This document shows positions 3,094 to 35,157 of a stretch of 64,000 nt of DNA, one piece after another (position 1 is the stretch's first letter; each line of letters opens with the position of its first letter). The position numbers were made by a program, and so were the translations under genes. Under the pieces are notes generated by a model, which was not told the origin of the DNA, ran no database searches, and saw only the letters and a list, made by a program, of their open reading frames with translations. Origin of the DNA: Malus domestica (lineage: Eukaryota; Streptophyta; Magnoliopsida; Rosales; Rosaceae); contig NC_091665.1 in the NCBI RefSeq assembly GCF_042453785.1, positions 26,317,501 to 26,381,500 of the forward strand. Direction: 5' to 3'.

Positions 3094-6000
3094 CGTTTAA
3101 TCATGAAAGATATTGCTTGAAACACACCATGATTACATCTACGAATGAGTACGATTATGAGGTTTATAAATCTGATAAAGTTTTGACTCGAGAATACTTT
3201 TTCGTCCTTCCATGTTTCTAACTCGTTCCCGAGGCAACAGTGTAAAGAGCGAAAGTTTACCAAATTCTTGAACGGTATAAACCCAGTTTGGTCAAGCCCA
3301 CGAACAACATGCCTTGCTTCGGCAGGGATGTACCGAACAGACTCCCATGGTTCGATTGAAACCTTTTGAACCCATTTGTCTCTCTCATCCGCTTTAGGGT
3401 TTGTTTTTACAACGTGTGGTAGAATCCTGGCCTGCCAAGGTGTGGCATCATGCCCGAAGCATGTTCCTTGGCACCTAAGACCTAAAACTTCAAGAATAAA
3501 GGATATTGTTCCTGAACCTCAACCCTGCATAATCTACTTTCATCTCGATGGAATAGATCATTGGTTATGCACCTGTTTGTGCCCCTACCAATGTTGTTGA
3601 GGAGTATTATTCTAGTAGACAATCTATTGGACTAATTTTGCTCCACCAAACACTGTTGGAAAAGCATATTTTTGACATGAATGGCCATGTTGGTCGAATC
3701 CACCTTAGTAACCTTGGTTTACTTTGTGAACATTTTTCTATGTTCTTGGATTCATGTTTGGTGTTTGTTTTCGTTATGGATAATCTTATCGATATTGTCC
3801 TCAAATATGAGTTAATTGAATCATGTTTCTTGTATACATGTGATCGAATTCAATTAAACACGTGATTAGGTACGAATGTGGGAACGTTAGTTGTCTGGAT
3901 GAATGTGATACTACGCATACTAACTTTATATCTAAATCACATCTCTAGCAACGACTTCAGGTTTATCCAACCTGATTAAAAGCATTGGCACGCTCCTCGT
4001 TGTATGAATGGTACTAAATTACCATTTCAGAGACCTTATATTCTCCTTGTGCTAGAAGAATGTCGTTGAACTTAAAAATATTCGAGAGAACAATGATTAT
4101 GAATGAAACCACTGATGGAAAATAGAGTGAAATATCTTTGCACCACCTCCAAAAATGAGCCTGAAGCTTTGTTTTGGGGCCAATCGGATGTCTCCCAACT
4201 GGGAACACGCCACATATAGCCGGCCTAAAGCCTGATGATTCGAGCAGTTTACTTGCCTTGGCATGACCATTTGGGACACTTAAGTCGAACAATGATGCCA
4301 CGACGCATCTCCTTACCCGAAGTAAGGATCTTGTGCCTACAAACACAGTTTGCCAAGCCTGCTCGTCAAAGAAATTGATTTTTTAAATCATCCCTAGCAA
4401 AGATACGAAATGACCCTCTTTTCACAATGGATTCAAGGGAATATATGTGGACTAATCCAACCAAATTGTGGACCATATAAATACTTATGGTTTTGGTTAA
4501 TGAATCGACAAACTGGTCACATGTTTGTCCACACACATTGCTGCTAAATCTCCTGGCCGATTTTAAAGGTTCACCACCCTAATTATCCCATAAAGTCTAA
4601 AAGACTGGATAATGCCAGAGAGTTTATATCGACGATTTTTTATAAAGTATTGCATATCTTTTAGGTTTATAATTGAACATCGAATTCCCATGTTCACCCC
4701 AAAACAACCTCGCATGGTGATCATAGAGAGCAATTTAAATGATTGTGTGGACCTTGGTGAACGCACCAAGTTTTCGGTTTCTACCTAGGGCTATGCAATC
4801 ATGTATGCATCGATGTTAGTCTGCCTTGAGACCCACTGCCACCCAACCATTTTCGAAGTTACAATTGGTTAATGGGTACGAACCTGACGCTTTGTATTTA
4901 CGCGTTTTGGGTGTGCATTCAATTCGCCAAGTTGCGTCGCCGCAACATACCAATATGGGTCCTCACAGAAGGTTGTGAATCTTTGTTGATTACGATTTTC
5001 CTTCATAATAACTCTCTTAAAGCCCTTGCAAGTGATCTCTTTACTGATCATTTGCGGATTGTCACTTCAATGAGACAGTTTTCCCGCCGTTAGGGGGAGA
5101 TAAGAATGTCAACGCTCCTGTAAAACGACGCGAATTTTCGTGGATGTTGCTCACTATGTCTCATCTTGATCCCCATACTGCACAAGTGTGATAAGAAAGT
5201 GCGATGAATTTTAGCTTTCAGAATGTTGCTCTAGACGCATTCCTCTGATTTAGCTAAAGTGACGAGATCATATACCAGCTGCAAACATACCTGCAATGAT
5301 AAATGTACATAAAGGACATTGAGTTAACATCCCCAAAGGGTGTGCCGCCCTTGTTGAACGGTTCAGTACACCGGCGGATAGCCAATCCATTTGTCTCAGT
5401 CTGAAGCATGACAGATTACTCGGTTCATAGGATTCACTTCCCTAGAAGAGGAAGATCACGACACAACAATGAATCCATCCTCGATCGCTGTCTCAAATCA
5501 TTTCCATCTCATGAGATTAATCCGGATTACTCCCGAGACTTGAAGTTCTTGGTCCAGTATACTAGTTTGGATGAGAAATGGAATTGGAATGAGATTATCA
5601 TCGATGATGTTTTCATTTGTATGGTAGCTACCGACATAAATGAAAAGCAACGATATCAAATAGTGTTTCGTTGATTAGTGACAATGCAGAACTGATTGGA
5701 CAACCAAAATTGCAATATATGTTAAATTTCTTACCAAAGTGTGTTTGGACCTACGTTCCTACCCTGCCCAAGGTAACCCTGTTGTGTTGCTAGTGGGAAA
5801 ATAAACGTAATGAGATGAATCAAAAAGTGCGATATAATGCATGTGTTACGGCGTAAGATTTCTCTTAAATGCCCTGTGATTGATATCAGCATTATGAAAT
5901 ATGGTTAATGTTTTTCCATGGGGATATTGATACAGAGATTGATATGTAAGTTCCTGAAGAATTACATGTAGTGGTTCAAATAGTTCCAGACTACATAACA

Positions 6001-26257: not shown

Positions 26258-27431
26258 TAGAGATGGCAACGGATCGGTTTGGGGATGGAAATACGATATT
26301 CATTCCTATAACCACGAAAATTAATTATATTTATAACCGCAAATTAACCATCGGGTATTATCCATAACCATACCCACCAGATAACGGATTTCTCATCGGT
26401 TAACGGTTATATCCATCTTCATTAATACAAAAAATATATTCGCTCAATTGACGCATGATAATTTAGTAAATATTAATTTCGTCATTAAATATTTGATGTA
26501 TAAAATATTTAATTAATGGATCTTGTTAAACATAAAAATTAAAGCTAAACATTGATAATGTTGGTTGATCTTTGATATCTCGCATAAATACTATTAAATT
26601 CTCATCGACTTTGATTCATATAAAAACTTTTGAACTTTGCCACAAAATAAAACTCACACAATGCAATTTTTGTATTATCAAAGTAATGGATTCGGTGAAT
26701 AATGAAATACATATATGTACATATAATTATATTATATATTATTCGGTTCGGATTTGGTTACGGATATGGATTGGGGACCCTTATAACCATATCCAAAACT
26801 ATAACCGAATAATATTCACGGTTTTTCCCCATAACCAAAATATACCCGAATTTTTATACTCAAATCCAATCCATTCGGACGGGTTTAACGGTTAGAATTG
26901 TCATCCCTAGACAATGTCTAAAATATCGATATTATCCCAATATTTCCATCGAAATTTCCGTGTTTTTGGACTACCGATATTTCCGATATCTTCAATATTT
27001 TAGACCTTGATAGGAACTCTATGTGGTACTAAGTCACTCATGTATCTTACCATGCAATGTATGAAGTGTAAAATATTGTACTAATTCATTATATATAAAT
27101 GATTATGGTATGTTTAAACTTCTTTAATTAATTACTACATATTTTCTACACTCACAATGTTTGCCAGCTTGCTATATAATCAACTTAAATCAGTTAAATC
27201 CATCATGCAATGCATTTCTTTCCAATTTTTTTTGTGATAAACTAATAGATAATTGATTAAAGAAACATCTTGCAAAGTTTCAATAAAAATTTCCAAGTTT
27301 TTCTTACAATTTCCGTGGTTTTTATTCAATTTTTATCGATATCGATAATATCCCGATATTTCCATCAAAATTTTCGTGTTTTTGGACTACCGATATTTTC
27401 AATATCATCGATATGTTATACCTTGTCCCTA
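26258..27431. mobile_element. hAT-like element interrupted by a second hAT-like element
   Basis: The left end is TAGAGATGGCAAC (26258). The right end reads GTCATCCCTA, whose complement is TAGGGATGAC. The right terminus is duplicated because another element (26912-27425) inserted into its last bases. Allowing for that, the outer flanks are GATTATAA (26250-26257) and GATCATAA (27432-27439), an 8-bp target duplication with one change. The interior is AT-rich with CGGTTATGG-type runs and no transposase. Confidence 0.75.
26912..27425. mobile_element. 514-bp hAT-like element, nested, CAAGGTATA family
   Basis: The ends are CAATGTCTAAAATATCG and the complement of CAAGGTATAACATATCG. An exact 8-bp duplication TCCCTAGA flanks it (26904-26911 and 27426-27433). 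The right 320 bp (27107-27425) are about 93% identical by eye to 29872-30171, the right part of the element at 29055. Both carry ATATCGATA-rich ends. Confidence 0.85.
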
Positions 27432-27875
27432 GATCATAATCTCCTCTACCAAAATAAAGACAGGAGGTAATACGCGGCATGACATGGCTGCTAATGTGTA
27501 TACAATTAACATTGTCAACTTAATATATTAGTAAAATGATAATTTTTTTTCTTCATTTTTCTAATAAATAGTATGAGTTATCGTGTATCAATCAACTAAT
27601 AAATTGACACCAATACGACGTATATAAATGGATCAACCAAACGGTCATGTATGCGACTTTAGACCTACTTTTATTTACCAGTTGAAATGGTGTCCGTTGT
27701 GCCCGCAATTTGGACCTGCTTCACTTCCTCTTATTGTCAACCCTAATCCGTTTAATTACGTCTCACTTGGGTCCGCCCTGCCCACATGGTGCAGCAACTT
27801 AGCCTTGCTTGAGGGACGACGGTACGACGTCGACAATGCTCTAATTGCTACGACATTGCGTTTTAAGGTAATTAC

Positions 27876-28179: not shown

Positions 28180-29054
28180 TTAAATCTGTAAACAAACTAC
28201 CATTAAAAAGATGGAAGGTATACACGCGAGAGACTATGCGACCCTTGACGCGCCCACACAAGAAGCCTGCAACGTTGTATGTCTTTGCTACGTCATATGC
28301 CACGAACGTGAGACACCGGTTACATATTGGCAAAGTTTATTTCCACCCGTACAAATCGCAGCCCATATTAAGCATAAACGTGGTTCAGGTAACATTCCTC
28401 TTACTTAATGCACAATGTACCCACAAAAAGAGAATCATAATGGATGAATATTACAGATGAGGACACTATACGATTTCTTTACAAGATTTTTGTTATGAAA
28501 TTGAGGATATGTGTGCAGTGAAATATAAAGTAAATAAGACATAATATTTACGAGGTTTGAGAAGTGTGACTACGTCCTCGAGACAGCAATAGTATTTTAT
28601 TTCATTATCTGAAATAATAGGAATATAAAATAACTCTCATTATTTTCTCTATTTTCTCTAGCCTGGCTCACTAGTATTTTATCCAGCATATCTCTTCTTT
28701 CTTTTCTGTCTTCCTTTCCTCTTTCCTTTCCTTTCCTCCGAATGTTTCTCTTCTTTGTGTGTTGTGTTTTTTTTTTTACTCTAAAATGATCGATCTTTTA
28801 TCATATTGTTGTCATTTGTTTGTTACATCATCAATATTTAAGTTTTATGCTGTTGATATATAATTTTTTTCAATTCAGCAATGGTATTTGATTTTTACCA
28901 TTGCTAAATGATATAAAAATTACCCTGTTAGAATGAATCACCGTTCTATATATATATATTTGTCAAGTTAGGCTGTTACCTATCTCTCAACCGTATAGGA
29001 ACAATGTTATAAGGAGACTTCCAATGGCATTTGAATGCCCCTTATACGCACAAC
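28180..29054. other. Intergenic stretch
   Basis: AT-rich, with a pyrimidine-rich tract at 28650-28790. I found no gene and could pair no repeat ends. Confidence 0.4.
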
Positions 29055-29616
29055 CAATGACTAAAATATCGATAATATCGACGAAATATCGCCGATATCA
29101 TCGTTTTTCAGAGAGACCGATATTTTCCCACGTGTTCGCCTAATTATCGTCAAAATATCGCGATATATTCAATATTATCGAAACAGTCGTCGTTGCTCCG
29201 TCATTGGAAAGGCAGCCGAGGCTGCGTCGTCGCAGCTGCCTAGATCTCTCTCTGCAATCCAGTCTCAAACCCAAGATCTGCGCCTCAACGACGCCGATTC
29301 CGCCGACGTTGTCGAAGTCGCGAAAAAAGAGCTCGCGGAACGGATTGCAATTGTAGATCCAGAACCTGTGGTCTGTCCCCACGATGAAACAGGCGTGGTC
29401 TTGGTTGAAGCAGACGTGGAATAGAGACGGAGGCTAGCGCGGCGCCGGCTGGGCAGGCTCCGGGGGGGAGGAGGAGAATGGGTGGTTGTTGTGGAGGTTG
29501 AGGTTGGGGTTTGGGGGCGATTGGGGGTTGTGGTGATCGTCACTGGAGTCAACGACAGAGGTGGGGTTGTTGTTGGTGGGATCGGTGAGGAAGGCGGAGG
29601 CGGAGATGAAAGAGTG

Positions 29617-29647
<31 letters not shown>

Positions 29648-30171
29648 CAGAGATGAGAGAGTGCGAAGAATATGTGGTGGTTGTGCAAGTTGAGGACTTA
29701 AAAAATTGGGTAATGTGAGATAGCAGATGAGGTTGACGTTTTGGATGGTTTAAAAATTGAAAACCATGGACTCTGAGATGGTTTTAATCATGAAAACCAC
29801 CCAAGGTGGATGGGTGATGGGAAAGAGCAAGGTGAGGTGGACGGTTTATAAAGTGGTGTGTTTAAACTTCTTTTATTAATTACTACATATTTTCTACACT
29901 CACAATGTTTGTCAGCTCGCTATATAATCAACTTAAATCAGTTAAATCCATCATATAATGCATTTCCTTCCAATTTTTTGTGATAAACTAATAGATAATT
30001 GACTAAATAAACATTCTGCAAAGTTTCAATAAAAATTTCCAAGTTTTTCTTACAATTTCCGTGGTTTTTATTCAATTTTTATTGATATCGATAATATCCC
30101 AATATTTCCATCGAAATTTCCATGTTTTTGAACTACCGATATTTTCGATATCATCGATATTTTATACCTTG
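29055..30171. mobile_element. hAT-like element carrying a captured host gene fragment
   Basis: The ends are CAATGACTAAAATATCG and the complement of CAAGGTATAAAATATCG. The flanks are CGCACAAC (29047-29054) and CACACAAC (30172-30179), an 8-bp duplication with one change. It is the same family as the element at 26912. Unlike that 514-bp copy it has about 600 extra, GC-rich bases between its ends, which include the ATG18/WIPI-like piece listed next. No transposase is visible, so it would depend on another element to move. Confidence 0.82.
29282..29720 (-). pseudogene. Captured 5' part of an ATG18/WIPI autophagy gene
   Basis: On the minus strand one frame runs from an ATG at 29688 through a Ser/Pro/Asn-rich leader (PQSPPNPNLNLHNNHPF). 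After a single stop at 29434-29436, the same frame continues with [32 protein letters not shown] and [18 protein letters not shown]. This is the start of the first WD blade of ATG18/WIPI proteins, where Arabidopsis ATG18a reads FNQDHACF...NCDPFRE. The family similarity ends abruptly after VVE, where the host gene would continue MLFRCNILALVGGG. A CT microsatellite at 29617-29648 and upstream sequence may be the original 5' UTR and promoter. No FRRG lipid-binding motif is included, so the piece could not work as an autophagy protein. Confidence 0.85.
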
Positions 30172-30279
30172 CACACAACTAAGTGATTTGTGTACAAAAA
30201 ACTGTATTTCATTCCCAAAAAGTCATCATGCATCATCCACATTTTCGCGTTATAGGTCATACGAAAACAAGTCCCATAT

Positions 30280-33397: not shown

Positions 33398-35157
33398 CAT
33401 CTCGCATACCTCTCCTTCAAATTTCTCAGATGTACGGGTTAACACCAATCAACGTTTGTGTTCAGTTCTCTTGAACGAGTTTAATTATCTCCCTTGGTCT
33501 TGAGCTGTGTCTCTTGCTCTCAGAGGCAAAGGGAAATTAGGGTTTGTAAATGGAAGTGTGGAAGCTCTAGACATCTCGTCCTTTACAAATGGTGCATGGC
33601 TTTGCAAGGATCAACTTGTCATGTCCTTGTTGCTCAACACCATGGAGAAACATGTTGCTGAGATTTTTAGCTACTACAATTCTTCATGTGAGATTTGAAA
33701 AGCCTTGCAAGATATGTATGGAAATTAAAACAACTATGCACGTGTCTTTCAACTTAAGAAGGACATTGCCAGTGCCCAAAAAGAAGGGAAAGCATTTGTT
33801 TAACACATTGGCCACCTCAAGGCTATGTGGAATGAGTTGGATGTATACCTTCCACATACCACAAATCCTGTCATTCTCCTGAAATGAGTCGAGAAAGACA
33901 GAATCTACCAGCTGTTGGGGAGTTTGAACTCCGAGTACAAGGATCTAAGGAGTCACGTCTTGATGAGTCAAGAGCTTCCTACCTTCAATAATGTATGTGC
34001 AACTATCCAACGAGAAGAAGCAAGGAAGAAAGTGATGAATGTTGAGCACAACTCGAGATTGATTGAGACTCGTGCATACGCCTCAAATTACAAGACCTTA
34101 GAGGCTAAGGTGTACAAAGGTAGAAATCCACACCTGAAATGCAAATATTGCAACGGCGTTGGTCATGTGGAAGACAAGTGTTGGGAACTTCATCCTGAAC
34201 TCAAGCCTAAGTTCAGCAAAGATGGAAAAATGAAACCAAGGTCCTCACAGCAATTTCAACCTCAGTATAAGGCCCAACTTGCTAATGCTTATCCCTCTAT
34301 TGTCTCCCAAGGATCCATGGAGTTCAATGTCTCTTATCAATGAGTTTGCAGCTTATCTTCAAAGCAAGGGACACGGAGGAGGTTCACAAGCTCAAGGAAA
34401 TGAAGAGAACAATCATGCAGCCATGTTGGGACAGTTTGCCGGCTTTCTTGCTGAAAATGAGAAAGTTTCACGGGATGAAGCACCAAGTATACTCAAAGCA
34501 TTCACTACTGCCTTGTTAACTAGTACTGAAAATGATTGTTGGATAATTGATTCAGGAGCCACATATCATATGACAAACAAAATCACAAATTTGCATCATT
34601 TTAAACGTTTTTCAAATCCCACAAATGTGTCTGTTGCAAATGGAAAAACTATTTTAGTTTTGGGAAAATGAGAAATAAACTTACTCTCACACAAAACACC
34701 TTCCACTGCTTTATATGTACCAACATTTCCCTTCCAACTTCTGTCAATTGGAAAGATCACAAACACCCTAAACTACCGTGCCATTTTCTCACGAAATAAC
34801 GTGATGTTTCAGGATGTTCTCACCATGAAGATGATTGGTGAAGGGGTCTTCATAAATGGACTTTACTACCTGTGCAAGAACGCTTGTTTTACTTAGGCTC
34901 TTCAAGCTCATTCGAATTCCATAGATGAAAACCAACTTTGGCATAAGAAATTAGCTCACCTCTCTGAAGTTATCTTGTTTAAACTGTTTCCAAATTTTTG
35001 TAAATCACATTTTACTTGTGATACTTGTCAATTTTCTAAGTTTACTAGACTACCTTTTGGTAACTCAATGTCTAGGACAAGTAAACTTTTTGAAATGGTG
35101 CACACCGATGTGGATTTTCACGTGTGACCCATAAATGGGGTCTCACGTGCAGAGGAA

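Follow-up and report, generated by a model that had tools for sequence, protein, structure and literature searches.

Capture of host gene fragments by hAT transposons is already on record for maize (PMC3260210, PMC8903248), grapevine (PMC2528002) and fungi (PMC6710886), and the capture of ATG18, an autophagy gene of the WIPI (PROPPIN) family, that we describe in apple is a further example. In the available excerpts of these articles, Pack-hAT elements of maize and rice are counted among the Pack-TYPE transposons, which are described as non-autonomous (PMC8903248), gene fragments are reported in two Ds2 and nine Ds-l4 elements of maize (PMC3260210), and a histone H3-bearing hAT of Pseudocercospora fijiensis is present in many copies, with 133 full-length elements (PMC6710886). 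Among the titles and abstract openings listed from the open-licence PMC literature, none gave an ATG18 sequence in a transposon or the present hAT family, and the available portion of the review PMC13317346 makes no mention of hAT.

In this study, we analysed a window of 64,000 nucleotides of apple DNA, part of contig C5, and searched the genome to which it belongs (651 Mb, 19 contigs). A hAT element of 1,117 bp at 29055-30171 of the window carries 322 bases of ATG18 exon 1, and we consider it highly probable that a hAT lineage captured part of the first exon of the ATG18 gene on contig C3 a single time and that the result was then amplified by transposition. As in Pack-hAT, to judge from the accessible text (PMC8903248), hAT ends and a target duplication surround a fragment of host coding sequence, and the window copy is without detected transposase; unlike in Pack-hAT, 7 of 44 carriers also have transposase sequence downstream of the ATG18 cargo. 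The excerpts on Ds2 and Ds-l4 likewise concern the hAT superfamily and captured genic DNA, but Ds2-22 and Ds-l4-354 are named there as single elements (PMC3260210), whereas the ATG18 cargo occurs in dozens, between other ends. Hatvine-6 of grapevine resembles the apple family in its shared transposase coding sequence and terminal inverted repeats around variable regions that match genic or non-genic DNA, yet its variable sequences are described, in the excerpts of that article, in few elements each (PMC2528002), as against dozens for ATG18. The P. fijiensis hAT has DUF659, 8-bp duplications and an amplified host gene in common with the apple family; according to the excerpted account it differs in being fungal, in having a cargo with exon junctions but without introns that stems from a transcript or a retrocopy, and in having copies inactivated by repeat-induced point mutation (PMC6710886). 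The apple family is a firmly grounded example in which hAT elements have spread a single host exon, some copies being short and others lying next to transposase sequence; the parent gene is identified, and its duplicate serves as a yardstick.

The window element is bounded by 27-nt terminal inverted repeats, short as in hAT elements, at 29055-29081 (plus strand) and 30145-30171 (minus strand), which pair imperfectly at 85% complementarity, and is flanked by target-site duplications CGCACAAC (29047-29054) and CACACAAC (30172-30179) that agree at 7 of 8 positions. From left to right, the left end and subterminal backbone (29055-29283, plus strand) is followed by the captured exon-1 fragment (29284-29605, minus strand, running from about position 378 to 48 of the parent coding sequence), by an internal non-ATG18 segment with a GA run that also occurs in other family copies (29606-29856, plus strand) and by a right end region common to other members and to a small neighbouring element, with 93% identity there (29854-30171, plus strand). 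The backbone includes a GC-rich part at about 29184-29283 that is common to relatives without ATG18 sequence; no host gene was recognised there among the fetched matches looked at (12 of 71 fetched, E up to 10), and we treat it as family backbone. A degenerate end pattern, at up to three mismatches, occurs five times in the window against none in 100 shuffles, and all five sites are ends of the two elements or a repeated end within the small one; at up to two mismatches the right-end pattern has 2,512 matches genome-wide against none for a reversed control. Pfam searches of the three longer frames, which cover part of the 1,117 bp, detected no transposase and gave a single weak, unrelated match (E 0.086). 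The window copy thus has the terminal inverted repeats, duplication and enclosed host coding fragment of a Pack-hAT and, with no internal transposase detected, the make-up of a Pack-TYPE transposon, to which the seven transposase-linked carriers would not conform.

The initial annotation had described this locus as a hAT-like element with paired ends, an 8-bp duplication and a smaller relative without cargo, and each part of that description is now better founded: the ends by the 27-nt arms, the end pattern and genomic copies, the duplication (7 of 8 here) by full 8/8 agreement in 13 of 19 carriers with both ends, and the hAT type by transposase evidence (PF05699 and DUF659). The smaller relative, at 26912-27425 on the plus strand, is flanked by exact 8/8 duplications, TCCCTAGA, at 26904-26911 and 27426-27433. 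Over 320 bases on its right side it is 93% identical to the larger element's right end, and over its right 434 bases it shows 93% identity to the cargo-free relatives L072 and L076. It contains the final codons of the family transposase frame (RNSMWY and the stop, 27012-27032, plus strand) and would, judging by its sequence, have arisen within this family by internal deletion. The small element also starts with a second, direct repeat of its own right end (26923-27009), which is joined to those final codons. Seven relatives (L071, L072, L073 and L075-L078) have the same family ends around differing middles and may hold other captures.

The cargo lies antisense to the element. It had been read as the 5' part of an ATG18/WIPI gene in a frame with a single stop, accompanied by a CT-rich leader and perhaps a promoter. 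Its identity is upheld, in that a 42-residue stretch matches WIPI3 (2.5e-6) and ATG18 chains in the PDB and the minus frame has one stop; Pfam found no ATG18/PROPPIN match in the window frames. We identified the parent as L061, an intact gene for ATG18 on contig C3; its 288-residue first-exon frame matches PROPPIN at 3.4e-24. A close duplicate on contig C11 (L062), with 91% protein identity, is more distant from the cargo. Family match and same-genome parent together place the origin of the cargo in ATG18/WIPI. Its extent has to be revised: the homology of the window copy corresponds to positions of about 48-378 of the C3 coding sequence, and since exon 1 of the C3 gene runs on beyond GGIGVVE, both breakpoints lie within that exon. 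The GA/CT run falls outside the ATG18 homology. GC content is 65% over the first 378 bases of the parent coding sequence, against 38% in the window. Capture of a leader or promoter was rejected on comparing some 2 kb of sequence ahead of the parental ATG with 46 loci, as the cargo homology ends at -8, in L013, or within the coding sequence; an isolated 94-base match in L025 (75.5%, -395 to -302) lies outside the cargo. Alone among the fetched carriers, L013, an element of 1,857 bp with an 8/8 duplication, retains the start codon and 8 bases upstream, in a frame of 140 codons.

A protein search of the genome gave 63 matches, 19 of which were dropped (two ATG18 genes, one MULE-like copy, 11 unclassified half-matches and five ATG18-like places with long frames, of which the one on C4 was fetched) and 44 counted as carriers; in the DNA search the best 40 of 3,159 candidates were scored, so that its counts are lower bounds. 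We read 35 of the 44 carriers, and L081, from a further DNA search, makes a 36th copy. Nine carriers are unread, including one of the seven linked to transposase, and three of the nine have element sequence alongside in the DNA searches. Two unread half-matches (C17:3620153 and C5:30606332) were retained since their frames resemble those of carriers that were read. The prediction of several carriers with the same ends is borne out by the 36 fetched copies, 19 of which have both ends within the fetched stretch. Among these 19, 17 have duplications of at least 6/8 (13 at 8/8, three at 7/8 and one at 6/8), in keeping with the 8-bp duplications of hAT elements. The script used here allowed shifts of up to two bases per end (L002 and L035 reach 8/8 with one end shifted by one base) and misplaced the left end in L022 and L026, giving 4/8 and 5/8.

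The junctions between cargo and element bear directly on how often the exon was captured. Right junctions, sorted by eye, fall into four types, present in 13, 18, 3 and 1 of 35 carriers, with the window copy belonging to the first, and L013 retains more of the 5' side of the gene; both observations would suit a scenario in which related elements captured this exon more than once, independently of each other. We hold this to be highly improbable, however, given that all 35 carriers compared have an identically placed left junction, at which CTC occurs in both backbone and gene (with a point change in L010, L013, L021 and L028), and that 33 copies form one group in the tree (91/91, recovered in 90% of 200 bootstrap trees and under the tool's star level). 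The tree, which omitted L045, L057 and L081 as short or gapped, leaves 22 of 34 inner branches open and has a long-branched C4 outgroup. At sites that distinguish the C3 from the C11 gene, the C3 base is more frequent than the C11 base in 36 of 36 fetched copies, and the window copy has 21 C3, 6 C11 and 4 other states at 31 such sites. Because the group of 33 copies adjoins the C3 gene (96/93, starred), capture most likely took place after the C3 and C11 genes separated. The constant left junction also opposes the notion that the ATG18 copies are segmental duplicates or processed pseudogenes with hAT ends as coincidental neighbours. Although the cargo lies entirely in one exon, which means that intron loss cannot be judged, the copies have matching ends with 8-bp duplications, and in both near-identical pairs tested (L005/L006 and L027/L029) the 500-base left flanks are unrelated, so that the members of each pair represent separate jumps. 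We therefore regard coincidental neighbourhood as exceedingly improbable.

It could also be argued that the transposon uses the ATG18-like stretch as a functional exon or micro-gene, conserved under selection, since 28 of 36 copies have no stop over the matched codons (with insertions dropped and frameshifts uncounted), every one of the 36 has a pN/pS below 1 relative to the parent, and L013 keeps its start codon and long frame. Constraint on the parent's own branch also lowers pN/pS measured in this way, however, the cargo is antisense to the transposase, and eight of the 36 copies, that of the window among them, do contain stops. Moreover, the changes found in one copy only (27 silent, 77 replacing, one stop) are near the neutral expectation of 30.9, 71.4 and 2.6. 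From the sequences, these private changes look neutral; selection on the cargo is unsupported, and a functional exon appears very unlikely. Under the preferred reading of a single capture followed by amplification, a hAT lineage would have copied part of C3 ATG18 exon 1 once, after the C3/C11 separation, presumably through template switching during gap repair, and the cargo would have been joined to the left backbone at the 3-base microhomology CTC. Ordinary cut-and-paste transposition of the hAT kind, producing 8-bp target duplications, would then have dispersed the chimeric element, and remodelling of its right side would have produced the four junction types, one of which is that of transposase-holding elements. 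The window copy, being short and without transposase, would have to be moved in trans, and the cargo would probably have evolved neutrally.

The ATG18 cargo is also present outside short elements, upstream of hAT transposase sequence. The right end of L072 and L076 holds a C-terminal transposase frame, and L073 aligns with L076 there at 96%. This frame was used for a genome search, in which the best 150 of 832 candidates were scored. The hAT dimerisation region PF05699 was detected in L085 (7.5e-11), and the carrier L065 has, about 2.1 kb downstream of the cargo, a 336-residue frame matching DUF659 (PF04937, 5.3e-52); transposase with a dimerisation region or DUF659 is thus found with the same ends, each copy being read in part. 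From coordinates, a carrier was scored as linked if transposase sequence lay no more than 7 kb downstream of it and on the strand of the element; at least 7 of 44 carriers are linked, compared with none in three control arrangements. This number is a lower bound, since the best 150 of 832 and 120 of 626 transposase candidates were scored; a PF05699 genome search (best 150 of 1,495 candidates) was not used for linkage. An eighth carrier with such linkage, C5:14516277, is left out of this number, as it already forms a complete element of 1.3 kb by itself. The carrier on C17 was read at both ends and is an element of 5,444 bp that includes the family C-terminal frame; its right end was found at 20423663, where the 394-base spacing seen in L072 and L076 had predicted it, with a 6/8 target duplication (GTTATACA/ATCATACA). 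The six fetched linked carriers (L007, L008, extended as L065, L019, L020, L045 and L060) have the second right-junction type. In linked carriers, the cargo lies upstream of the transposase sequence and antisense to it. Five transposase-linked copies fall in a 23-row group of the tree (86/93), nested among short copies, so that entry of the cargo into a short element may have come first. Directly after the transposase stop codon, L085 contains a further insertion (61-435) with a CCCCAGTTTGGGG-like start.

An exact 21-mer is shared with the first exon of the C3 gene by 36 of 36 copies and an exact 24-mer by 34, and the longest exact run in the window copy is 33 bases. Because the copies share exact 21-mers with the gene, small-RNA effects on ATG18 are possible, as are antisense effects of the carriers. 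That a captured piece in opposite orientation could give antisense transcripts was put forward in the grapevine work, in the portion available (PMC2528002). We consider it unlikely, though conceivable, that antisense ATG18 transcripts or small RNAs of the transposase-bearing lineage act in trans on ATG18 and so tie autophagy gene expression to transposon activity. Overexpression of apple ATG18a is reported, in titles and abstract openings, to improve drought tolerance, heat tolerance and leaf blotch resistance, and carrier small RNAs, if they reach the ATG18 gene, would be of agronomic relevance. The C3 gene is a candidate match for MdATG18a, for which no chromosome or accession was found in PMC5787838.

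Ten nearby open reading frames of the window were scanned, and six give Pfam matches to ordinary plant gene families: ubiquitin/ubiquilin (two), C2H2 zinc finger, PPR, galacturonosyltransferase and protein kinase. Rfam at gathering score and a tRNA scan found nothing in the whole window. Frames at 33888-34671 contain a CCHC-like motif and DSGAT, and this stretch resembles a decayed copia-type retrotransposon; Pfam gave no match on 33888-34343. Elsewhere in the genome, ATG18 matches at C5:39908857, C3:37305838, C7:36843831, C10:24043264, C13:20853420 and C11:30335718, of which five consist of two halves with about 50 bases between them, are either intron-bearing ATG18 genes or another element subfamily. 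A separate, second capture is present on contig C7 (L063:3389-4587), where C11-type ATG18 pieces at 3792-4223, joining positions of about 80-392 of the coding sequence to 605-720, show 21 C11, 3 C3 and 3 other states. Inverted repeats of about 370 bp flank these pieces, together with a possible but weak 9-bp duplication, TTTTTATTT, which is AT-rich and was found with shifts. This element presumably resembles a Pack-MULE, and the same ATG18 gene pair seems to have been captured by two different kinds of transposon.
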